Source: Linnemannia hyalina
Lineage: Eukaryota > Mortierellomycota > Mortierellomycetes > Mortierellales > Mortierellaceae
Length of the DNA: 64,000 bases
Assembly (NCBI GenBank): GCA_019671135.1
Contig: JAHRHY010000017.1
Coordinates: 372,001-436,000 of the forward strand
Direction: 5' to 3'
The translations under genes were made by a program, and so were the position numbers. Below the pieces are notes generated by a model. It was given only the letters and a program-made list of their open reading frames with translations. It made no database searches and had not been told where the DNA came from. Positions 21,512 to 36,430 of the stretch are shown here, piece after piece. Positions within the stretch are counted from its first letter, which is position 1. Every line of letters begins with the position of its first letter.

Positions 21512-23388
21512 TATGTTGATGAATGCGGTTGTGAGAAGGAGAGTGTTGAGCGGGGAGGTCGAGGCGTTGGAGATAAGAAAAGAACAGAGAGAAGGGAAAA
21601 AGAGCGCAAGGGTGGGGGCTTGCATGCAAGGACGCTATACTGCACGTGACTTCTATGGATGCACTTCGTGGCAAAATCTTGGTCCACAGACAGGGGTGAA
21701 TGAAAGAAAGGCCTTCTGCAACACTCCTTTTCGCTAGAAAAAACTATCGTTTGTTGAGAAAATGGCGTGTCAAAGTCTTTGTCTTGCTTTCAGGGGAGGC
21801 GAATGAAGTCAATGGGCAATTATTACACCTCTCGTCATTATGCATTTGTCGACACCTCTTGGCAACAATCACTTCTTCGCACCAACCCCACTTCTTCCTA
21901 CCACCAGGCTTATTGCATTGTCGAACAAACATCCTAGAAGAGTTCCGCCACCAAGGAACATAGAAATCTCGCAGACTATTGGAATGGAGTAGACGAATTT
22001 TGCTTAATCACACCAGTCAGGTCGGGTCAAAAAGGTGGGCTGTGTGCTATTGGGCAAGGGCTTTTGTGGAGGCGAGGTCAGTAATAGTGTGTTTTTCTTG
22101 GCTGTAGCAAGTAGAAAAATAAATTGCATTAGCGAGAATCTGAAATCTTCACGGTTGAAAGGATTCTAGAAGTGGAGGCGGAGGAGTAAAGAAGCAGCTG
22201 ATGGATGTTGGGATGTTGGGGAGTGGGCTTGATTGAAGGAGAAGGGAGGAGGGGGTAAGGGTGTGTGAGTGAGTGAGTGAGTAAGTCGCGTGAATAAACG
22301 GTGAGAGTGGTCAGGATTCAGTTATTGTGGGCTCCTTGAAATATCAATAAGAGACAAGAAGGGCGTCGATGAGTATTGGCATATTGGCATATTGGCATTG
22401 AGAATGCGGATGGGGTGGGGGTGCATGGTCCGGAAGAAAAGAAAGACAAAAAATGGGCGAAAGCGCATCTTTGATCGATCATTGGCTGGAGCGAGTTGTG
22501 TCGTTTTGCGTGTGATTCCCGTGTAAAATGGGAGAAATAATATTTTATGTCTGGATGTGTGTGCTGTCTGTCGGTCAGTCAGACCGGTCCATCTGCCTTC
22601 CTTTCTCCCCCTTGCCTTCCCTTGCCTTCCCTTGCCTTCCCTTCCTTGGCTGGAAAATGGGCATTGAAGACAGACTGACTGAAATAATTTGCTCCCATCT
22701 CATCGACTCCGGGGCAGTGCTCAGGTCCAATCTATTTAAGTAGGCGGCTCTTTCTGTGATATTTTTCGTCTCTCTTTTTTTTATTCTCCTTCTTCGTCTT
22801 TTCTGTCACTCTTTGTTTTCTGTTCTCTTCACCATACACACACAAGCTCTCTATCTCTCTCTCCCTCTCTCCCTCTCTCCCTCTTTCCCTCTCTCTGTAC
22901 ATTCTTCTTTATTCTCTTTCTTGCATTCGTCCTCTCTTTCTTTTGTACATTCATAAACACTTCCTCATCCTCGACAACTTGATCTCCTACCACAAGTTTG
23001 CATTCCGCACTTTTGCCATCTCCACATTACATTCATACCTTTGGTCAAATAAACGAAAAAGAAAAAGTCTCCGAACACTTCTTCTCTGACGACCTGCCCT
23101 CTTGTTATATTCTCAAGCATCGTCCTTTGTAAGATGCCACCAACAGCTATCTCGCTACACGTTGATACCTTTCACAGAAGAACCCTTGCTGACATGATAA
23201 AGAACATTCCTCCTCCAATTGACACTAGGCGAAGCATAACTCACGTTTGACACTTCCTCTCCACAAACCTGGCTGCGGATCTAATTGCTTACTCAGTCAG
23301 ACAGACGATCGCCTCAGGACAGAATACCCTTTCCAATCGATCCTCTCTCTTAACCCTCTCTCTCTCCCCTCGCACTTGTACGGAGACC
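21512..23388. other. Long divergent upstream region
   Basis: About 1.9 kb between the TMEM19-like gene and the large Myb-like gene. It has GAGT repeats (about 22265-22285), an atattggc triplet (22375-22400), cccttgccttc repeats (22605-22645) and a long CTCTCC tract (about 22850-22905). The pyrimidine tracts near the right end suggest a promoter or leader of the Myb-like gene. A leader intron cannot be excluded. Confidence 0.45.
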
Positions 23389-23974
23389 ATGATGGGTCAC
23401 GCAAAGTCCCATCCTTCGCTATTTCTTACCACAAAGGACTTTTCATTACAGGACTCGCCCACCTTTCGCCCCCACCTTCTCCCCTCCCCTTCCACCGAAC
23501 ACAACGGACAAAAAATCATGCATCTCCAACAGCAACAACAACAGCAGCAGCAGCATTCATTACGCCACCAACAATACAACCAACACAGCCACACCGCTCC
23601 ACAACAACAACCCAACAGCAGCAACACCTCGGTACAGTCATCACAGCAAGGACCGTCAGCTCCCTCAATAAGGAGCGATGGTGCTGCAACGGCTGTTGCC
23701 GAGGATGACCTCAACTTTCATGACTTTATCCATGCCAAGCACGATGACGAACGGTACGGGGACGATAGCCGATCGTCGATGGTTTTGCCGGAATCCGATC
23801 GTGGCCCCAGCACCAGCACGATCACCACCACAGCCACGACCCAGGGATCAGTACAGTCTCAATCGACCCAAATCTGCAGTAATCACACACAGCCAATCGG
23901 AGGCAATCTCCACATCACCTCCCACAGCCTTGACCATATCAGCCATAATGCAGGCACCCAGCAGAACCAGCTTG

Positions 23975-24012
<38 letters not shown>

Positions 24013-26649
24013 AACAACAACAACATTAATGATACCCATGGGCAAAATATCTATGAGCACTCCTCAGATCACTTCCCGCCCTACGACCTTGTCCCACCGC
24101 CCACCCAGGATTTGTTCCGCACCCTCATGGAGGAACTCCAGACCGAGGCTGCCCACCAGCGAGATCAGGTCATGGCATCGTCGTCTACTTCTACGTCAAC
24201 CAGGCCGGACTCTGGTGTCGAGGTTGACTATTCGCTCGGCGGTCAGCACCAGCACTCAAGGGCACTGCCTCGGTTCATGATGGAGCCTCTTGACTTTCTT
24301 TCGGGAGACTACGAGTCTTGTCTGGGCAGCACAGATATCCATTCGATGGCAGACACCAACTCGTCGGACCTCTCCTCGTTCTCTGCACAGTACGGATCCT
24401 CAAGCCATGATCAGAACCAGGGAGCGGCAACGTCTTCTTTGCAGGTTACCTACGATACCCATTCGTCCTCTCACGGCCGTTCTGGATCGATGGACTCTAC
24501 TAATTCCAGGAAGCGACCCCTTTCCGACGATGACTCTCATATCCTGAATCAGCACAACAACGGGACAGGTACACCACCCTCGTTTACGACAACCCATGAC
24601 CAACTGTCGCCGCCAACACAGGATTTGTTCCGCATGCTGATGGAGGAGCTCGAGACCCAGGCCGCCCTTCAGCGTGACCAGTTCTTGGCATCTACAGCAA
24701 GACAGGAGGCCGCCGGTGCGGCTCTCACCAACACTGATTATGCCTTCAACGGCAACGATCAGCACCACGCTCGTCTTCCGCGCTTTGTGATGGAGCCTCT
24801 GGATTTCTTTAATGCTGGCTACGGAACCATGCAGGTCGATGGAACTATGAGCGAACATTCTGGGGTCTCGGGAGGAGCATCTTCTGCCAGTGCTTCTCAG
24901 ATGCTTTCAGCTACTTCATCGAATCTTGAAGCCAGCCACTCTCACCTTCAGCAGCCTCAACAACATCAGCAGCAGGAATTCGCACCCCCGGATGTTTTCC
25001 GTACTCTCATGGAGGAACTGGAGGTCCAGGCTGCCTTTCAGCGTGAGCAGGTCTTGGCCGCCACCACAGGAACTGCACCCCGAGTCGACCCGGAGGAGTA
25101 TGTATTCAACGGACAGCATCTTCGTCCCTTACCTCGTTTCATGATTGAGCCTCTCGATTTCATGTCGTCGAGCTATGAGTCGTACCTCAACAGCAGCATG
25201 TCCTCGGAACCGCATCATTTCGATCCCTCGCAGAACAACTTTTTGGGTCTCAGTCACTCGCAGTCCTCAGGAGTCTCGTCATCATCGTTGTCGGCGCCTC
25301 TGGAACAGAACAACCAGAACCTTGCTCCTCCTGCAAAGAGGGTCACAAGGAAACCTTCGGCGTCTGGTTCTGGTGGCAAGGGCGTCAAGTCGCGCCGACC
25401 CAAGCACCTCACCATCGCATCAAGGTCGGGATCGAATCTCGAAGTCCCCACCTCAGGATCGAACCAACTCCCTAGCCCTTCCAAGAAGCGACGTGTTGGT
25501 GATGATGATGATGGTGCCTCTGGAAGTTGCTCTCCGTCCAGCCTTGTGACATCTCCCTTTGGATCCACTGCTGGTGATGGTCTGGATTCGCCCATCTCTC
25601 CCACCTCGATGTCCAACCTGTCGATTTCAAGCGACGCCCAGAGTGCTGATGGCTCAACCACAGATGGAGCAGTTGCTCAGACCTCGAAGCGTCCCTGGAC
25701 CCACAAGGACGAGACTCTGCTGCTGAAACTGTTTGCCAAGCGGCTGCCGATCAAGGAGATTGCTCAGACGCTCAACCGATCAGTCCACTCTGTCCGCTCC
25801 CGCCGCCAGATCCTGACAGATCCTGGATTTGTGAAGGGCAAAGGTCACAGCGTCTCACGTCGGTGCAAACAAGACCCAGCAACAACGACCAAACTCCCGA
25901 CCTATGCCCAGATGGGGTTCCTGTCCTTGGCCTGGTTGCCCGATCTGGAGGGAACCCTGAACGATGTGGCGACGATGGTCGAAAAGTTGTTCAGCAAGCA
26001 TCTCAACCGCATCCCCAGGACTGGACACAAGAACCTGCAGATCTGGAGGGCGCAGCTTTCGGATGCTCTTGCACACGAGAAGGGACAGCCCCGGCCACGG
26101 TTCGAGAGCTTTGGTGTCAAGCGTGGTCGCCAGTGGGTGTACAGGTTGACCGAGTTTGGAAAGGGGGTTGTTGAGGCTATGGGAGGCGTTGAGAAGATCT
26201 GTGAGGATCTGTTGAAGAGCAACGAGATGGAGATGGCCAACGCTGCTCAAGCCGACGAACAGGATGGCTTGCAGGACGGTAATAGTAAGGATGCCGACGG
26301 AGTTGGTGTTGGCGGATCTGGTGCCGATGCCGGAATTGGACAGGGCCAGGGATACGGATACAGCTACAAGCCCCCAGATGCCAGACAAAAGTCGAACAAG
26401 GGATCCAGTCGTGCGGCGAGGAGATCTTTGGCCAAGAAGAATGCTGCTGCTGCCGCTGCAGCCGCTGCAGCAGGGGAACCCTTGCCCAAGGGAGGTGGGA
26501 ATGCGATTGCGAACGCTGTGGAGGCCATTGCTGCAGCGATGGCCAAGATGACGTCGTCTGAGGAGGAGAAGGAGAAGTATCGGAGGAGTGAGAGTGATGA
26601 GGATGAGAAGGATGGTATAATGGATGTCGAGATGGAGGACGACGACTAG
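23389..26649 (+). CDS. Large Myb/SANT-like DNA-binding protein with three internal repeats
   Basis: Single exon, 1086 residues. The N-terminus has poly-Gln and His/Gln tracts and a 16-residue poly-Asn run (about 197-212). Three related blocks follow at about 236-312, 406-480 and 532-600. Each starts PP(T)Q-D-L/V-FR-x-LMEEL, continues QAA-QR-QV/F and ends LPRF-MEPLDF. A Ser-rich linker with short basic KKRR leads to a Myb-like helix-turn-helix (about 768-810: RPWTHKDETLLLKLFAKRLP, then IAQTLNRSVHSVRSRR). A folded block (about 841-934) follows, then poly-Ala and an acidic tail. It is probably a nuclear regulator; targets are unknown. MM at the start is in a good context, and the next ATG (23518) would remove 43 residues. 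Confidence 0.8.
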
Positions 26650-26866: not shown

Positions 26867-27664
26867 TCAGCATTTGTGTGGTCCCCGGAAGCAAACGAAC
26901 CAGTCTGAGCGGAAACATTTTGTGTCAAGGACATGTGGGCATGGACAATTGATGGGTCGGTCGACACAGGTATCTGTCTCTGCGCAATAGTATCCCTTGC
27001 ACTCTGATCCCGGCAGGACCTGTCTTGTTCCTGCTCCGTATTCGTGGTTTGCGTCGGATGTGTCTGCTTGCTGGGTATCGTAGTTGTTGTAGTTGGAGGA
27101 ATAAGAGTCGTAGTCGTAGTCGTCATCGTCGTCGTTGGAGGTGGGGAAGTATGAGGAAGAAGGTTCGCTAAAGTATTTCTTTTCAAACTCTGTCCGGTCA
27201 TCGGATGTCTCTTGAAGGTGCTGGGCTGGGTCGTTATACCAGGTCTGTTGTCCTCTTTGTTCTTGAGGACTGTAGGTTTGTTGCTGTTTCCGCCGACTAC
27301 TCTTTCCACTGCACTGATGTGTAGACTCTGCCGTCGGGAACGGTATCTCAAACGACGTCCGACTGCCAACTCTCTCACCATCACCACCATCACTACCACC
27401 ACTCGACGTTGAAGCCGGGTAAGAAGAGCGCCTTGGCACGGTAGCATTAAAGTGCGAGAGAAAAGACTGGAGACCGTAGAGGATGAGTGCTGTGAGGACT
27501 AGGATGGATCGTAAAGATGGCCCTCCACGCTGATTGTGGGTATGGTGGGAGAGGAAGAGGTTTGTGGACAGGGAGGAGGATTTCTTCATTTTGAGACAAG
27601 GAGGACGTGTGGTGGTTGTGGGGGTGTGCAGGAGAGTTGTTGGAGGGTGAGGGATGTGAGCCAT
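26867..27664 (-). CDS. Membrane-anchored protein with an Lcl2-like cysteine motif
   Basis: Single exon, 265 residues (240 if the better-context ATG at 27589 is used). One hydrophobic segment (about residues 51-68, SILVLTALILYGL) suggests a signal anchor. A Ser/Gln/Asp/Tyr-rich disordered stalk follows. The C-terminal 50 residues hold a compact cysteine module: SECKGYYC, DTCVDRPI, NCPCPHV, KC and FVCFRG. This order resembles the C-terminus of fungal Lcl2 (long chronological lifespan 2), a small ER/secretory protein of uncertain function. Typical Lcl2 is short and has a cleaved signal peptide, so the long stalk is different. The gene is convergent with the Myb-like gene. Confidence 0.65.
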   Translation of the reverse strand: MAHIPHPPTTLLHTPTTTTRPPCLKMKKSSSLSTNLFLSHHTHNQRGGPSLRSILVLTALILYGLQSFLSHFNATVPRRSSYPASTSSGGSDGGDGERVGSRTSFEIPFPTAESTHQCSGKSSRRKQQQTYSPQEQRGQQTWYNDPAQHLQETSDDRTEFEKKYFSEPSSSYFPTSNDDDDDYDYDSYSSNYNNYDTQQADTSDANHEYGAGTRQVLPGSECKGYYCAETDTCVDRPINCPCPHVLDTKCFRSDWFVCFRGPHKC

Positions 27665-28050
27665 TGGAAGCGAAGACTGTGATGATATGTAAAATAACGA
27701 TAGAGCGGGATGTAAAGCTGGAAGGTGTGGGAATGAAAAGGGAGAGGGGACGCTTTATATATTGTGGGTGAGAGAGAGAGAGAGGGATGCAACGTGGCAC
27801 AACAAGATCTGTCTTCGATCTCAGACAAAGACAAAAATTTGAGACACAAACGAATCACGCCCACGTCCTTGACTTCTGGTAGTGGCACACGTACCCAAGT
27901 GGCAAGGGTAGAGGACAATGGGACGCCATAATTCTCTTATTGACTGAAACTACGCGTGAAATCTTTCCTAATATGGATTACATTACACTGTCAATTGACA
28001 CATATTATCCATTCAAAATCGGCTCAAGGAACTCATTTGACACTATATTT
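27665..28050. other. Intergenic region
   Basis: It contains the upstream region of the Lcl2-like gene, including a GA-rich stretch at 27770-27785 (CT on the minus strand). No gene is seen. Confidence 0.45.
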
Positions 28051-28602
28051 TTATTCGCTGGCACTTTCGCCCTGCACCACCCTCATTAAGGCCTTTGACT
28101 TGAAGATAGGTGCTGTGTAGCAACACCATTGTTTCTTGAAGGTACTGAAACGAGCACTTTCTTTTCTTTGTAGCCGAAAGTACTTCGTAAATCTTCTTGA
28201 TGATGGCCATAAATCAGCCTCTCTTTTTTCAGCCCTTTCTCTCTGCCGTAAAAGAAGGAGCTGAGGCGAAAGAATCGTCTCCAACGAGACGTTAAGTTGA
28301 TTCTCGTCTGCAGTCGATTCCTTTGAGAGGGATGGCTCACCCTCATAGCTGATCTCTATATCATTGTAGATCCTTGTCACAAGATACATGTGTTTACAAG
28401 GCTCCTTGTACCGCGTGTAATCGCCGCAAGTGCAAGAGTAGAGACATGAGATATACTCATTTTGTGTTGACAGAATACGACTCATGGGGCAAGTCCCCTC
28501 CTCAGCACATGTAACCTCAAAACAGGGTGTCGATTCCTCTGGAAGTTCTTCGCGCTTACACCGAATAGGCTCAAAGAATTTGGTGATAAGATCACCCTCC
28601 AT
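28051..28602 (-). CDS. Small SWIM zinc-finger protein, possibly transposase-derived
   Basis: Single exon of 183 residues, starting at the ATG 28602-28600. The key feature is YSCTCGDYTRYKEPCKHMYLV (Cys-x-Cys, nine residues, Cys-x-His), a SWIM zinc finger. SWIM fingers with the PCKHMYLV form are common at the end of MULE-type transposases and in related domesticated proteins, where they bind DNA or protein. No DDE catalytic core is visible. The rest is charged, with RQRERAEKREADLW. The gene diverges from the nuclease pseudogene at 28782 across 179 bases, so the two share a promoter region. It could be a fragment of a transposon, an accessory gene of the same element, or an independent small gene. 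Confidence 0.65.
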   Translation of the reverse strand: MEGDLITKFFEPIRCKREELPEESTPCFEVTCAEEGTCPMSRILSTQNEYISCLYSCTCGDYTRYKEPCKHMYLVTRIYNDIEISYEGEPSLSKESTADENQLNVSLETILSPQLLLLRQRERAEKREADLWPSSRRFTKYFRLQRKESARFSTFKKQWCCYTAPIFKSKALMRVVQGESASE

Positions 28603-28652
28603 CACACGCGTGACATATTTTCAGTCTCGACAATATTTTAACCTTCCCAGAT

Positions 28653-28728
28653 CCTTTTCTCCTTCCCACACCCTTTTCTCCTTCCCACACCCTTTTCTCC
28701 TTCCCACATCCTTTTCTCTTTCCCAAAA
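28653..28728. repeat. Four 19-bp tandem repeats in a divergent promoter
   Basis: The unit CCTTTTCTCCTTCCCACAC occurs at 28653-28671 and 28672-28690, with one change at 28691-28709 and a diverged fourth copy at 28710-28728. The array sits between the starts of the SWIM gene (minus) and the XPG-like pseudogene (plus). It could be an iterated protein-binding site or simply a pyrimidine minisatellite. Confidence 0.85.
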
Positions 28729-28781
28729 CACGACACACACATACACAAAAAGGAGGCACTACTCGCCTCTTCCTCGCTAAC

Positions 28782-31700
28782 ATGGGAGTACCCGGGCTTT
28801 GGCCCCTCTGCGCGGAGAAGGGTTACAAGGCCCAACTCAAACAAGGACTCTCCAGCTCTCCTCCAACACCAGGCTCCAAGTTCCGCGTCGACTTACTGGC
28901 CTCATCCTACCCCCAAATCCGCTACCACTACCTAAACGACCTATCCACCTTTCCTCAAGCGATCGAGCTGCACTTTATCTCCTGTGAGTTGCGCAAGAAA
29001 ACCTCGGTACTCTACCTCGATGGAATTTCTCCTGTCTAGAAGCAACACATAAACGCCTTGAGGCAGGACAAGCGCAACACCGCGCTGGCAGGAGCGGAGG
29101 ATTGTATCCGGAATATGGAAAAATCGCTGGAAGGAGGCCACAGTCCATGCAAGCCGACTTTCAAGAAATTAATGAATAAGCTCCGTGGCGCATTCTACCT
29201 TGGTCAAGACTCTCGGATGGTGTTGGTCACATATCTACGCGGACAAGGCTGGAGCTTGCCAGAAATTGCGTCCGAAGCAGATATCACCATTGCTCATGAT
29301 TTCAAGCCTGGCGATATCGTCGTGTCGCAGGATAGCGACATAACAGCTTACGAGAACGTGGAGACGATCTGGCCTCTGTCACGAAGGCGGTTTCTGAAGT
29401 ATGAGATGGGAGCTGTGGCCAAACACCACCTACAGTTGAGCCGCGTGCAGCTGACGGTTCTCTACTGTGTGTCGAAGAACGACTACACCACGAACCTGAA
29501 CCAAATGGGGGTCAGGACCAACTACGGAACTATCAAGACCATAACTGAAGGTGGTAATGACCCCGATCTCGTTTTCATTATATTTTCTTGTTGTCACAAG
29601 CCCTCGAGATAGTAAACTTACTATCTCTCTCTTTTTTATTTATTTTTAAGATCCCCAAACGATGGTCCGTCGGTACCTGGCGCATGAAGTTGTGGTGATC
29701 AAGAAACCTGATCTAGACCGTTTTGATCCGGCGTTGAAGGTTTTCTGCCGCCGAGAACTTACAATCCCGGATCCCCCTGCTGCACCCCATGGACTTGACG
29801 CCGATGCACGACTCCAGGAGCTTTTTCAGAGGTTGGCCCGGATCCGTGACGTTACTCACGACAGACGTCAACAGACGTTTGTTAATCTGATTGGTGAGGA
29901 TTTGTTATGATTGAAGTTCATAATGTTATGAAGAATCTGTTTGTTAATGGTACATGTCTTTTCTATACTTGTTCTAGTAGCGCTTTTGTCGCAAGTGCGT
30001 CTGAGGGTAACGTGGATATACCCAACCGATTTCGTATCGCGGACAGGCCTCCCGAGAAGCCTCCTCCACCCACAAGTCCGGTCGGCGGTACAAACACCGT
30101 TCCAGATATGCCATCAAGACGCGGACGATGAAGCTGGAACACGAACCAACTGAGGGATTCAATAAGTACAAGCTCAAACCCTGGGACAGCGTGAGAAATC
30201 CCCGGCCACTAGCGCTACCTCTAAAAAATCGCAGAAACCCTATAACCACCGGTCAGTAACAAGCTTGATCAAGAAACAGGACCATATCTCAGCCATGGAC
30301 TTTGATCACCCTATATGGACTCTCAATCTTGGCACAGTCCAGGCGAACGCCAAGCGTGCTATATCAAGGAACATTACCCATTCCGCCGAGCGTCGATCTA
30401 TCCTTATACAGGCATCAGGAGTTGCTTCCAGCACGTCGTCAAACAAGCCTCGGAGGCAGCGAGGACCTTGCAGTGCGGCATTGGCATGTACCTCGAGAGC
30501 CTGTCTGCCCGGGAGGTCGACGACATGGACAAACTGATTCTCAGGAAACTCTGTCCTAATTTCACCGTCGAGAAAATTACCGCTTTCAACGACTGGACAA
30601 ACCAGCAACAGAGCGTCGGTCAGAGACAGGATCAGGAACATGACCAAGGTTCGCAGAGGAAGTACAATGAACAAGAACCTTTCCTAAAGATGCTCTTGAA
30701 CGCTATCATGAACTCGACACAACCTGGTGCAACGGCGAATGTGAGAAACCCCACGGCGAATGTGGAGCTCGCCCGCGAGTTTTTCAACAGGATCAACCTG
30801 TACGGTGTCTCGGGTCCACCAACCAAGCCGGCGTATCCAGCATCAACAATAGCCCAGCTTGTTGCTAATCAGCTTTACGTGGAGCTTAAAAACCATTACA
30901 AGAATGGTTCTTTGGTACTCTGCAAAAAGGTAATGACAACTACAACTATTGTTGCGGATATAAAAGATTTTGTAATATTATGGACGTTTTAGGGATGGCT
31001 TTCCTAAACCCTGTCTCGTGTCTCTTTCAACAAAACAGATCGAGGTCTTGAAGAAGGAGCTCCTCCAAGTGGAGGCAACAACGGGAACGATCGATCTCTC
31101 CATGTCGGCGATCCAAAACGTCCTTGGTTTGAACAGAGTTTGCGGACGACCCCGATGCTTGCTGCCGATGTCGTCAATGAAGGACAGGTTCATTACTTTG
31201 ACGGAACTCGAGCTTGTGGAACTGTTTTGGCGGAACCCGGCACTGAAGTGCGAGCTTCAGCACATATATCAACCAACTCCCAAACACAGTAAATAGCTGG
31301 AACGGCAACGAATGGAGACTACGGAGGGAGGTCAATCAATCAGTGACATAAAGAGCCATCTCCCCCCACATCGAGGCCCGGACGGCAGTGTTGAGAAGTA
31401 TGTCAACGCGAGACAGGAGATTGAGACTGTTTTTTACGATTTCTACAACAAACCGGCGATCAAGAAAATACCTGGAATGCGCAACTGGCCAAGGAGCAAG
31501 AATTTAGTCTGGCTGCCGGTCGATTGTTGCGAATGCTTGGAGGGTCTATCGGCGCCAAGAGACAGGACGACAACTTTGTCATTATCGGGATCGGCCTTGG
31601 AGATTTCAAGTCGCACTATGGCCTTTCTTCGCTCCACACCGCCTTTTGTTCATATTTTGTCCGACTAGTAAGTGAACAGTGCCGGTCTTTGTCAAAAAAT

Positions 31701-31990
31701 TGGTGGTTTGAAATCAAAAACCAGCAACTGACACCATACTCTCCGTTCTCTTTCTCTTCTGTATTTTATAATTTTCTTAGGCAAGATCTCTGGGATACAT
31801 TGTCGTAGGTGTAAATGAATTTTATACATCCAAGAAATTCCCGGTTTGTCAAGCCTTCGTCGGTCAAGTCAACATGCGATGACTGTATTGTCCACATTGC
31901 AAGAGCTTCATGCACCGAGACGAGCTGGCGGGGCACAATATGTGCAACATTATTCAAGGACACTTGCTGGATCAAGAGCGACCACAGTAG
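28782..31990 (+). pseudogene. Broken gene: XPG/FEN1-like nuclease joined to a TnpB/Fanzor-like C-terminus
   Basis: The frame opens with MGVPGLWPL, the hallmark start of XPG/FEN1 nucleases, then VLYLDG and, near 29270-29340, EIASEADITIA and VVSQDSD, matching the acidic XPG-I region. Introns at 29551-29650, 30930-31038 and 31668-31780 keep frame. Much later come GGSIGAKRQDDNFVIIGIGLG, GLSSLHTAFCSYF, SLGYIVVGVNEFYTSKK, PVCQAF, LYCPHCKSFMHRD and GHNMCN. This is the layout of the RuvC-II/zinc-ribbon/RuvC-III end of TnpB and Fanzor proteins. Damage seen: TAG at 29037, TAG at 31294, TGA at 31880; apparent frameshifts near 30080, 30425 and 31480; and Phe in place of the first zinc-ribbon Cys (KKFPVC). 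I find no RuvC-I motif between FFWRN-like sequence and IYQPTPKH, suggesting an internal deletion. Confidence 0.7.
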
Positions 31991-32080
31991 TAGAGGACAA
32001 TAACAATTGCAAGTCCAGTTGCGACGCCTGGCAAAAGCGCCAAGGTGAGGTGCGAATTATGCAATCGCTGACCCTATAGC

Positions 32081-33728
32081 GCATGATGACCTTGATGACC
32101 TTGAGCAAGATAATACTACACACAGTGATTATCCATTCTTCCATCTCTTCCGGGCATTATTCGACCAGGTATGTACGATTGTTAGACTGTTCTTATTACT
32201 TGGTGTACTTGGTTGGTGCTATTAAGATTGTAGTGCTGATATTCATCGCCCTCTCTTTTTGCCTGTAGCATCACAATTGGAAGCTCATCGTGCCCAGCCG
32301 ACCAGCCAAACTCACTGGCCTCCAGTCAATTCTCTTCCGATTTGTTGCAGAGCGTCTGCCTAAATTCAAGAAGCTGCACCGCATGCACAAGAAATAAGTT
32401 TAATCGCATATTAACAACTATTTTTCCTTTATATTAGTGTCGCGGCGTCGATGGTAGCACACCTGGAAATGGAGGATGCACACCGTGTTTTCGGGCTTGC
32501 GGTGATCTCCGAGCTTGCTCCTTTGGTGGTCGACGAGCAGTTTGTGGATGCCGACGAAGCGCTGAGGAGCACTCTGAAAACGACTACAGACGCGGCAAGA
32601 GACTCAAATGGCTACCTTGACGCACAGCGAGTTCAGCTGTTAGCAACTGTCAGGCTTGGAGAGCTAGCATCTAATGCACTGGTGGGGAAGCCGACAGACT
32701 ATCGAGAGAGACGTGTGTTTGAGATCGTGCGCTATTTGTAAGGACGGATACACACTGCTCTGTAAGATCAAGGATGTGCAATGCTACGCAGTGATTCAGA
32801 CACTTATTCATTTTATCTCTCCCAATACCATTTGCCATTCATAGGGCAAAGCTGTCAGAACATCAAGTGGTTGCTCGCCCAAAGGAGACAGAATCAATGA
32901 CTGTTAGGACCTGGCACCAGGTGTTTGATCTGATGTTTGATGGAACTATTATCTTTGTCCTAACGTAAGTGTCGCCTATGCTGCCTTACAGTAACCATCG
33001 TGTACATTTTCTTCGTACTGGATTGTAACCGAAACGACCCGTCTCTCCATACATATCCCACAGAGGCGAGTCCGGCTTATCTTCCACTCGCGAGGAATGA
33101 GAGCAGCATAAGCAGGAGCATGGAGGAGAATTCCCGCCACTGATGCCAAGGAAAGTAGACTTTCTTCTTGTCGCCTCCGTTGACGAGGAACACAAGCTGC
33201 TGCATGTCGAGTTGGTGGACTATGAGCACAAAGGACCAAGAGCAAGCAAGGATGATGTCGCTATACAGCTAAGAAAATCGATACGCCACAATCACTCCAT
33301 TCTATCGCGGCACCCCTGGCGCAAGGAGCTTGTCTTTCTGGACATTAAAGGTATGTCAGCCAAACGATTATTATTACAAATGGCTAGATTAAGCTGCTGC
33401 CGCACGCTAAGGATGGGCTCGACTCATCCACTTTCATTGCCAACAAATAGGGTACACCGGACGAGTCGTGCATATGGTGAAACACGACGGAGTGTATCTT
33501 TGCGCAACTCTCTGTGAAGACTTGAAACTGCCCACCTATGCTGCGGAACTCAGCCAGTTCATAAGCGGAAGAGCGCTTGCCACATTGGAATGGATAAGAG
33601 TATGTCCTCACCTTTAACCAGCGAAACTTGTTACTCTGCATACACTGTTGACATGCATCTACTTACGCACTTTTTTTTATTCCTTGCAAACGTAGGCTCA
33701 ACTCCTGGAGGCAGCAGAAGAGGTCTAA
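32081..33728 (+). pseudogene. Broken gene: PD-(D/E)XK-like nuclease
   Basis: Coding-like segments with matching splice sites can be followed: about 32081-32168 (DYPFFHLFRALFDQ), 32269-32396 (WKLIVPSRPAKLTG), about 32440-32737, 32845-32964, 33064-33350, 33451-33599 and 33696-33728. The core segment reads GESGLSSTREE, then PRKVDFLLVASVDEEHKLLHVELVDYEHK, with an Asp and a later Glu spaced as in PD-(D/E)XK nucleases, and then FLDIKG/YTGRVVHM. TGA at 33098-33100 interrupts the core, and the segment ending near 32396 runs into TAA without a good donor. The start was not found; it begins just after the TnpB-like pseudogene on the same strand. It may be a separate gene or the distal part of the same transcription unit. 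The nuclease assignment is inference from motif spacing. Confidence 0.5.
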
Positions 33729-34628
33729 AAGGAGACTCTGAGGCCGAATAGGCCGCCGTTGATAAGGTCGCTCACACCGCCGCCTGCACTGAAGCAGTGC
33801 CCCTCCACATTTTATTCACCTTCGTCAAAGACGACCTGACGTGGTTGTCATTTTTTCGATAGGCTGCTGTTCAATGAAAGAGGAGAATTATGGCATGGTA
33901 CGGAGCTTTGCCAAGGCATTACATCTCAACATGTTTGGGTAAAGAAAAACAAAAGTAGGGTGAGCTTGCGAGCGGTCTTGAGGATGCCGAGGCGAACCAA
34001 GGAGACGCGAGGGAGTGTATCGTTGGATGGGCGATTTTGTGGAAGAGAAGATATAAGAGGAAGGAAGCAATGAACGAAGGGTCTTTCATACTAGAATTGC
34101 GAAGGGCTGTAAATAACGGATGGTGGCTTGGCCATGCGTGCCTGTTGTGCGCCTTCCAACGACAGAGCCGACCTTTACGAAGATTTCGTGAGGTTCCAAG
34201 CCAAATAAAAAGGCGATACCTCTCGGTCCTTCATGAAGTTCATAGATTATTATGTCCCTGATGGCTCAGCAAGAGATCTGCAACAAGTCAGCAGACAAGG
34301 CTTATAGGCGAAAATATTAGCGCTGCAGCTAGAGAAGCCACATTCTTGAGTTGATTTGTCGTGTCGTGCGGGAAGGCATAGCTGGGCGATTTTTTGGTCT
34401 CTCTCTCTCTTTCTCAACTTTCGCTGGCACCAACAAAGAATCGCCCATGACACCAATTAAATGCAGCCTGTGCCGTTTACCCTTCCTTCAGGGACAAGGA
34501 CGGAAACCGAAAAACAAAATCAAAATGCTCTCATGTCGAAACTCTATTTTCTTCTTCCGTCCAAAGTAACAAACAAGACTTTACCTTTTCCCTCTTGATA
34601 CTTCGTTACCTTTTTTTCTTACCCGGTC
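33729..34628. other. Intergenic region after nuclease island
   Basis: No gene is supported. Nothing resembling the left flank of the island was recognised here, so the right boundary of a possible element is not visible. Confidence 0.45.
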
Positions 34629-34843: not shown

Positions 34844-35281
34844 CTACAGAAGGGCACCAGCAATAGCCACAGCAGCCGCGCCAGCAGCAGCAATCTTGGC
34901 CGACGAGGCACCACAGAACCGACTTCCATCATTAGCAGAAGCAGAGGCAGACACGTTATCGCAGGTACCAGGGACGGCTGCAGAGGCTTCATACAACTCT
35001 CTAAATAGCTTGACCGCTCCTGCGGGACACTTGTCGTCTCCAATGCACCCTTCGATCCAAGTCTTGTTGGCGACTAGACCACACAAACAGGCCTTTTGCT
35101 TGTCGCTAAGCGTCCCGGAGGGAGCAATAAGGTCAGAGTCCACGAGGCCCTTGCAGGCGGGGGCGGCTGCGAATGCGGCGTTCTCGATGCAAGTGGTGCA
35201 GGCGGCGAGGAGTACGGTCTGAGCAGAGACGACGGAGAAGAGGACCATGGTGGCGGCAGCGAGGATGGTGAAGCAACGCAT
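34844..35281 (-). CDS. Small secreted cysteine-rich protein, GPI type (copy A)
   Basis: Single exon, 145 residues. The signal peptide covers about residues 1-20 (ILAAATMVLFSVVSAQ). The mature part has spaced cysteines (ACTTC, PAC, CLCG, GC, KCP, GTC, RFCG), then SRFCGASS followed by an Ala/Gly/Ile hydrophobic tail, the usual form of a GPI-attachment signal. The function is unknown; the layout fits wall-associated or effector-like proteins. Its sister is at 35878-36321. Compared with the sister it lacks a few residues after the signal peptide and has Ile or Glu at several aligned positions. A TATA-like ACTTAAATA (minus strand, around 35358-35368) lies some 75-85 bases upstream of the ATG and is conserved in both copies. 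Confidence 0.82.
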   Translation of the reverse strand: MRCFTILAAATMVLFSVVSAQTVLLAACTTCIENAAFAAAPACKGLVDSDLIAPSGTLSDKQKACLCGLVANKTWIEGCIGDDKCPAGAVKLFRELYEASAAVPGTCDNVSASASANDGSRFCGASSAKIAAAGAAAVAIAGALL

Positions 35282-35352
35282 TTTGGATATGTGTTTTGTG
35301 TTTTTGTGGTGAGTGGTTGTGTGCGGAATGGTACAAAACAATAATGGACGAT

Positions 35353-35368
35353 CCTCAGTATTTAAGTA
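35353..35368 (-). promoter_or_regulatory. TATA-like element upstream of secreted protein copy A
   Basis: The 16-base string whose plus-strand form is cctcagtatttaagta is kept identically in both duplicated units, about 72 bases upstream of this ATG and 94 bases upstream of the sister ATG. Its A/T core and position suggest a core promoter. Confidence 0.45.
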
Positions 35369-35452
35369 TTTTTTGATTTGATTGTCATCGCTCACGAGAA
35401 AATGAACTTAGGTGGACCATCTTTCTTTGGCGCTCTCAAATCCCTCAGAAAC

Positions 35453-35877: not shown

Positions 35878-36321
35878 CTACAGAAGGGCACCAGCAATAG
35901 CCACAGCAGCTGCGCCAGCAGCAGCAACCTTGACCGACGAGGCGCCGCAGAACCGACTTCCACCATTAGTAGAGGCAGACACGTTATCGCAGGTACCAGG
36001 GGCGGCTGCAAGGCTATCATACGCCTTTTTAAACTGCTGGAACAATTCTGCGGGACACTTGTCGGCTCCTGCGCACGCGTTGGTCCAGGTCTTGTTGGCG
36101 ACCAGGCCACACAAGCAGGTCTTTTGCTTGTCGCTAAGCGTCGCGGAGGGGGCAAAAAGGTTGGTGTTCTGGAGGCCATTGCAGGCTGGGGCGGCGGCGA
36201 TTCCGGCGTTGTTGAGGCAGGTGTTGCAAGCGGCGACGAGGGAGGGGTCGGGCACGGTCTGAGCAGAGACGACGGAGAGGATAACCATGGTAGCGGCGGC
36301 GAGGATGGTGGAGCAACGCAT
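35878..36321 (-). CDS. Small secreted cysteine-rich protein, GPI type (copy B)
   Basis: Single exon, 147 residues, the same architecture as copy A: signal peptide ending VVSAQ, cysteines in ACNTC, PAC, CLCG, AC, KCP, GTC and RFCG, and a hydrophobic Ala-rich tail ending AIAGALL. The core CLCGLVANKTW is identical in the two proteins and carries one N-glycosylation site. Differences are concentrated in the first third of the mature protein and around the FKKAYDSL helix. The gene lies 1.04 kb from copy A in the same orientation as part of the tandem duplication. Function unknown. Confidence 0.82.
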   Translation of the reverse strand: MRCSTILAAATMVILSVVSAQTVPDPSLVAACNTCLNNAGIAAAPACNGLQNTNLFAPSATLSDKQKTCLCGLVANKTWTNACAGADKCPAELFQQFKKAYDSLAAAPGTCDNVSASTNGGSRFCGASSVKVAAAGAAAVAIAGALL

Positions 36322-36414
36322 TTTGGATGTGTTTTGTGTTTTTGTGGTGAAGGGAGGAAGGAGTGCTTGTGTTTGGTGGTGTGCGGAATGGTGACAAAAA
36401 AAATAATGGACGAA

Positions 36415-36430
36415 CCTCAGTATTTAAGTA
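36415..36430 (-). promoter_or_regulatory. TATA-like element upstream of secreted protein copy B
   Basis: Same conserved string as upstream of copy A (plus-strand form cctcagtatttaagta), here about 94 bases before the ATG. Confidence 0.45.

Follow-up and report, generated by a model that had tools for sequence, protein, structure and literature searches.

Fanzors are the eukaryotic relatives of CRISPR Cas12, and the part they play in the life of transposons is not settled. Bao and Jurka described Fanzor1 in MuDR-like elements with a 9-bp target-site duplication in Rhizopus, Phycomyces and Mucor (passages of PMC3627910). The Fanzor fingerprint applied here is that of Yoon 2023; in passages of that paper (PMC10711439) Ealt, DPG and TDG are described as Fanzor features, DPG as 'near exclusive' to Fanzors, and a clade with D-Phi-G and Ealt is described as well. 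Here we report on a gene family, termed XPG-Fanzor, of the Mortierellomycotina fungus Linnemannia hyalina, in which an XPG/FEN1-like nuclease is followed by a Fanzor-like one, and on a copy of it in a stretch of 64,000 nucleotides (the window; C9:372001-436000 of a 51.5-Mb, 50-contig assembly). The window gene is a dead copy, and probably one of a transposon-carried family whose product would be a single protein with two DNA nucleases.

The XPG-Fanzor gene and its open relatives

The window copy (27000-34500) was compared by tblastn with an intact paralogue as query (Table 1). From the ATG at 28782 the XPG-like stretch matched over 260 columns (E 1.2e-57), and the last 69 residues of the RuvC/zinc-ribbon end (31243-31987) were 72% identical to the paralogue. 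In-frame TAG codons were found in the XPG-like domain (29037-29039) and in the RuvC remnant (31294-31296), together with a TGA (31880-31882) in the segment that holds RuvC-II, the zinc ribbon and RuvC-III. The reading frame switches, for example from 3 to 2 near 30190-30199 and from 2 to 1 near 31461-31467, and the first residues of the RuvC remnant (31243 on) overlap the preceding linker segment (to 31260). The first Cys of the zinc ribbon is replaced by Phe (FPVC), and no counterpart of paralogue residues 816-1029, which hold the TDG motif and RuvC-I, was detected within 27000-34500. The coordinates, three stops, lost zinc-ribbon Cys and lost RuvC-I given in an earlier note on this DNA all matched tblastn and the reading of stops. 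The window copy is itself incapable of the guided cutting proposed below. As no nuclease family was matched by Pfam in the seven window frames scanned, a set that left out the last exon (31781-31987), the case rests on intact relatives.

Such relatives are numerous, with at least 129 exon-level matches to the C-terminal piece in the genome at E <=0.001 (150 of 154 candidates scored). One copy, L039 (C1:605112-609424), comprises five exons joined by four GT-AG introns of 92-133 bases and is stop-free over 1295 aa. In a second, diverged lineage the group B copy L045 gave a single open spliced frame of 1342-1357 aa, the range being set by the choice of third and fourth introns. The XPG exon runs stop-free to a canonical GT donor, with joins that keep the frame in the two lineages. 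Of the 79 merged XPG-like places, 66 were followed on their own strand by a Fanzor-end place no more than 7 kb away (13 had none), at a narrow spacing of mostly 3.0-3.4 kb. Both halves, from the XPG-like start through RuvC-III, were also present in ten annotated proteins from several genera (P0005, P0006, P0012, P0017, P0019, P0022, P0023, P0025, P0030 and P0032), the relatives being mostly 37-53% identical to P0006. The open spliced models in two element lineages and the ten two-half proteins bear out the proposal that the two ends belong to one gene, and on these gene models the intact copies almost certainly encode a single polypeptide joining XPG-like and Fanzor-like nucleases.

The lineage of the window copy is carried by MULE-type elements and the diverged lineage by piggyBac-like elements. 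Profile and fold comparison of the relatives agreed in placing the N-terminus in the XPG/FEN1/EXO1 family, as had been suggested for the window gene; the nuclease fold spans about residues 2-297, and the nearest enzymes in fold are EXO1, FEN1 and XPG. Seven metal-binding acidic positions were assigned from FEN1, on the assumption that they correspond, and all seven were acidic in the MULE-type XPG half, the second XPG-I Glu being Asp. Profile and fold comparison likewise grouped the C-terminus with Fanzor1 structures, which upholds the reading of a TnpB/Fanzor-like tail, and PF07282 was matched in intact relatives. A linker and a helical region connect the XPG-like fold to this Fanzor1-like RuvC and zinc-ribbon nuclease. 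The Ealt residue, a Glu located six positions ahead of the zinc ribbon, was present in all 21 sequences that extend that far (DEYLTSTMC in group B). The TDG motif of the Fanzor1 WED domain was also kept (T 26/26; D 21/26, with N in 5; G 26/26), and the piggyBac-type lineage has DPG at RuvC-I in three representatives, one per group (A, B and C). From these alignments the catalytic residue sets of both halves appear to be kept in the relatives.

Two kinds of carrier element

The elements that hold the copies on contigs C1 and C8 are about 8 kb long, and their ends match (GGTTCC.GGACAATGGGCGC and the like). The terminal inverted repeats (TIRs) of the C1 element are about 18-20 bp long with few mismatches, the C8 ends are alike, and an exact right-end core was present in 13 of 30 loci. 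Target-site duplications were read at these two elements only; the direct repeats outside the ends, seen by eye, are ATCGCGTG (8) at C8 and GACATT (6; 9 if a shared GGG is counted) at C1. The C1 element carries divergent open reading frames (ORFs), one with a match to MULE PF10551 (1.5e-4, 22.6 bits) below the cut-off of 27.6, and a neighbouring ORF with a SWIM match above cut-off. The SWIM remnant of the window (PF04434, E 1.5e-4) and the SWIM ORF in the MULE-type element (L071) share 35% identity (E 1e-17), and the order and strand of the remnant are as in the C1 element. The core of the C1/C8 ends, GGACAATGGGNC, has its 12-mer match at window position 27913; at <=1 mismatch it gave 3 matches in the window, where 1.3 are expected by chance. 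No match was obtained at <=3 mismatches with a longer pattern of 18 end positions. The 12-mer is weak alone as a left-end remnant, its support being its position just outside the SWIM remnant. The window copy is accordingly read as a decayed MULE-type copy with an unrecognisable right end.

Three groups of near-identical copies (A, B and C) reside in elements that encode, upstream of the XPG-Fanzor gene and on its strand, a piggyBac-like transposase (PF13843 in L042, E 2.5e-20; 67 PF13843 matches in the genome). An XPG-like domain lay within 6 kb downstream of 27 of the 39 merged PF13843 loci, where chance would give about 0.5% per locus, and 12 had none. About 6.6 kb is common to three group A copies at 95-99.7%, the group A ends are sharp by eye (7 left and 7 right), and the piggyBac-type ends read TATCCC...GGGATA. 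Since no TTAA target-site duplication was found beside the copies read, 'piggyBac-like' names the transposase only. A search for empty sites with eight joined flank pairs matched, in the DNA that was searched, only the pairs themselves and a 52-base chance-like stretch. A domesticated host gene, the other option raised in the earlier note, is not favoured, since the family has many copies and element ends are present on those examined.

Three further observations concern these carriers. In seven of seven group A copies (L042, L043, L044, L056, L058, L061 and L063) the left end is flanked directly by a T, and five of the seven have C at the third flanking position, a possible target-site or target-adjacent-motif preference. 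In L055 (C12:3158900-3168200) a copy of the window lineage (C12:3163181) lies at position 1288, preceded by a group A left end and by pieces of transposase; this is possibly a chimeric or nested element, hinting at a route for the gene between transposon types. On contig C5 a piggyBac-like transposase piece (1599853-1600655, plus strand) lies head-to-head with a window-lineage XPG-Fanzor copy (1598329-1599090, minus strand).

The right end and a proposed mechanism

Folding of 13 loci predicts two hairpins in the roughly 110 bases that precede the right end of MULE-type copies: a small one and, after a short linker, a terminal one in which the TIR lies. RNAalifold on alignment A5, whose 5' arm seems poorly aligned, returned a weak 8-pair structure with no two-sided changes, and the A3 structure was used in its place. 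In A3 (7 loci, 24 pairs) 91.3% of cells were paired compared with 86.4% in shuffles (0/500 as high), five pairs showed two-sided change (5/500 as high), and slides of 1-3 columns lowered pairing to 27-57%; the RNAalifold covariation term was slightly unfavourable (+0.82). A covariance model built from the seven loci, whose E-values are rough, was run on the 30 best-scoring Fanzor-end loci; 25 gave a match at E <=0.02, including 18 of the 23 outside its building set (L011-L013 are near-identical copies), and every match lay past the Fanzor end on its strand. Weak matches were seen at L031 (0.47) and L033 (0.48), and none at L027, L035 or the window copy (L009). Over 28 distinct rows, a few of them weak or chance, two-sided change was seen at 13 pairs (51 cells, compared with 19 in shuffles) in an alignment fitted to the structure and biased towards it. 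No covariance-model match was found in the left-end stretches L069 and L071, and Rfam gave nothing at the gathering threshold in five loci. The predicted two-hairpin structure is thus conserved at MULE-type right ends, beyond the coding region, where the earlier note had proposed a search of the flanks for an omega-RNA-like RNA.

The piggyBac-type right ends have a similar two-hairpin layout with other stem sequences, which is not beyond chance end by end, and they do not match the covariance model. MAFFT misaligned the stems of nine such ends, none of eight was significant singly in a shuffle test of the upstream hairpin (P 0.056 to 0.91), and folding z-scores of seven ranged from -0.3 to -3.2. 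For this type the layout is suggestive only.

The architecture, its conservation, the transposon carriage and the predicted right-end structure are the ground from which we infer RNA guidance, target choice and an EXO1/FEN1-like role after the cut. A right-end transcript would serve as omega-RNA, its 3' end extending into flanking DNA as the guide. Programmed by it, the Fanzor half would cut the matching empty site on the sister chromatid, on the homologue or at the site just left. The XPG-like half would then trim 5' ends or flaps at this cut in the manner of EXO1/FEN1, and such trimming may steer repair to homology-based copying back of the element. This resect-and-copy-back model is the one we prefer, and we hold it tentatively. 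In the same cautious sense XPG-Fanzor may be a natural two-nuclease RNA-guided effector, with guided cutting and 5'-end or flap processing in one polypeptide that commits the break to copy-back. That the same module, read as such an effector, has moved between MULE-like and piggyBac-like transposons is a joint proposal, which we put forward as a possibility falling short of an even chance.

A number of findings weigh against this account. Of the 124 merged Fanzor-end places, 58 lacked an XPG hit in the 7 kb upstream, which means that many copies are truncated or diverged. The XPG_I scores of L039 and P0006 fell under the Pfam cut-off, and whole-model Foldseek alignments to Fanzor gave a root-mean-square deviation of 9-11 A with a query template-modelling score of about 0.30. 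At RuvC-I the MULE-type lineage, that of the window, has D-Phi-G and not DPG (middle residue Leu 22, Met 1, Gly 1 and Ala 1; n=25), so it is Fanzor-like and not a fingerprinted Fanzor. Near-identical copies differ too little for dN/dS to show purifying selection. Further pair types in the seven-locus structure were not above shuffles (169/500). A single polypeptide, a right-end RNA and cutting by either half are each something that we infer.

The right-end structure itself could be a fold-back transposon end, read by a MULE-like transposase, and not an omega-RNA; this is a substantial possibility, which we consider somewhat improbable. The right-arm motif at <=2 mismatches occurred at 131 genome places (0 in a reversed control), and 36-37 of the 100 listed lay just past a Fanzor end among the places listed, the others being solitary. 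Among sampled solitary ends, chosen by a motif contained in the model in a 4-kb search with identical copies included, 15 of 16 matched the model at E <=0.02 (L088, 0.066). The motif also occurs in two inverted pairs, one of them 1.4 kb apart with the structure at both ends, and these observations, the overlap of the outer arm with the TIR and the failure of piggyBac-type ends to match the model all fit a transposase-recognised end. They are countered by the upstream hairpin, which lies outside the TIR and covaries, by the left-end stretches without a match, and by the piggyBac-type elements, which with other TIRs have the similar layout described above, itself not beyond chance end by end. 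Moreover, 'ghost' loci of SpuFz1 with omega-RNA and without the protein have been reported (Saito 2023, passages of PMC10432273); the solitary ends may be like these, or may merely be non-autonomous MULE ends. The closely spaced inverted pair, L095/L096 (C1:239050-240660), about 1.4 kb apart, has no XPG-Fanzor place among the matches listed and is likely a non-autonomous element.

Two other explanations accept the fusion and give the XPG-like half another role. It is unlikely, in our view, that this half, or both halves, is now a mere DNA-binding module and that the elements are passengers of MULE-like and piggyBac-like transposases. The first XPG-I Glu is Gln in 3/3 piggyBac-type representatives, and many copies have stops or lack one end, as such a module would allow. 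The five other acidic positions are kept in that lineage, however (the D34-like site is in another exon, outside the alignment), so that the other alignable positions remain acidic in both lineages despite the low identity among relatives, and long open frames are present. It is similarly doubtful that the XPG-like half acts in transposition or on the guide RNA, by cutting the right-end hairpin or flap or by trimming an omega-RNA precursor. The terminal hairpin with its TIR is a possible substrate for a structure-specific nuclease, and PIN/XPG-fold enzymes include some that act on RNA; the closest folds, EXO1, FEN1 and XPG, nonetheless act on DNA flaps and ends, and none of the present results ties the XPG domain to the hairpin.

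The idea of two neighbouring genes within one transposon, merged by gene predictors, draws on the intron directly after the XPG domain, on database proteins that match one half only (for example P0066-P0069) and on a product deduced from sequence and not from transcripts, and it is very improbable given the stop-free XPG exon with its frame-keeping joins, the narrow spacing and the ten two-half proteins. A canonical host XPG gene was ruled out, PF00752 matching other loci of the genome and not the window locus, and chance resemblance was ruled out by the open relatives and their fold.

Window features, distribution and comparison with known systems

Table 1. Features of the decayed XPG-Fanzor copy, in window coordinates
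Feature	Position	Strand	Evidence
Candidate left terminal-inverted-repeat remnant, GGACAATGGGAC	27913..27924	+	Sole exact window match to GGACAATGGGNC
MULE-type transposase gene remnant (SWIM zinc-finger end), oriented divergently to the nuclease gene	28051..28617	-	SWIM PF04434
XPG/FEN1-like nuclease domain, MGVPGLW start	28782..29549	+	44% identity to intact paralogue
Linker and Fanzor N-terminal/REC-like region, fragmented, with frame changes and intron-like gaps	29656..31260	+	tblastn
RuvC remnant: helices and GIGLG strand preceding RuvC-II	31243..31691	+	tblastn, stop reading
RuvC-II (NEFYTSKK), zinc ribbon, RuvC-III (MHRD..GHNMCNI)	31781..31987	+	tblastn; PF07282 in intact relatives

Elsewhere in the window, two adjacent similar ORFs on the minus strand (34844-35407 and 35878-36423) have a signal-peptide-like start and evenly spaced cysteines, CFEM-like by eye, and may have arisen when a gene for a secreted protein was duplicated in tandem. 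On the plus strand, an ORF at 33101-33514 resembles part of a conserved protein (VDFLLVASVDEEHKLLHVELVDYEHK), possibly related to a nuclease or transposable element, with no match in Pfam, and a 1132-aa open frame at 23251-26649 has Q and N runs and, by eye, a Myb-like stretch.

In the searches made, the XPG-Fanzor family was met only in mortierelloid fungi, and it is large in the Linnemannia hyalina genome. Protein-database matches with an organism name (40/40, 8/16 and 14/15 named) all came from genera that we take to be mortierelloid, the lineage having been looked up for two species; each of these searches scored only the roughly 8000 candidates sharing most words, so distant relatives elsewhere could be missed. 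In UniRef some family proteins are named 'Cas12f1-like TNB domain-containing' and one 'XPG-I domain-containing', and earlier Fanzor surveys may contain such proteins unremarked. No description of the fusion was found in the literature searched, most subscription papers and all supplements being beyond its reach, in keeping with the novelty claimed beforehand; the words XPG and Mortierella are absent from PMC3627910, PMC10432273 and PMC11423790.

A Fanzor joined to a resection-type nuclease directs attention to the events that follow the cut. In this fungus, whose open copies have multiplied recently, the idea that a guided cut promotes copying back can be put to the test. Guided nucleases have been fused to exonucleases by engineering, and XPG-Fanzor, if the resect-and-copy-back model is true, would be the natural counterpart of such fusions.

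With Fanzor1 (SpuFz1, GtFz1 and PpFz1; passages of PMC3627910, PMC10432273 and PMC11423790) the family shares the fold of residues 445-1122, the RuvC D-Ealt-D set, a C4 zinc ribbon between RuvC-II and RuvC-III, the TDG motif, transposon carriage and a candidate structured RNA at the right end. It differs in its N-terminal XPG-like nuclease, in a full length of about 1150-1350 aa, in D-Phi-G for DPG in the MULE-type lineage, and in its piggyBac-like elements, a form of carriage not met for Fanzor1 in those passages. PpFz1 (Parasitella/Rhizopus) is likewise an early-diverging fungal Fanzor1 with an extra domain; in the passages of PMC11423790 that domain is FRI, linked to cyclophilin, and no XPG-like domain is mentioned. 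With TnpB of IS605/IS607 and with Cas12f the family has the PF07282 TNB zinc-ribbon/RuvC-III homology in common, and is set apart from them by its Ealt position, larger helical region, introns and XPG domain. Unlike the members of the XPG/FEN1/EXO1/GEN1 5'-nuclease superfamily, the XPG-like nuclease described here is joined to a Fanzor-like one and carried by a transposon.
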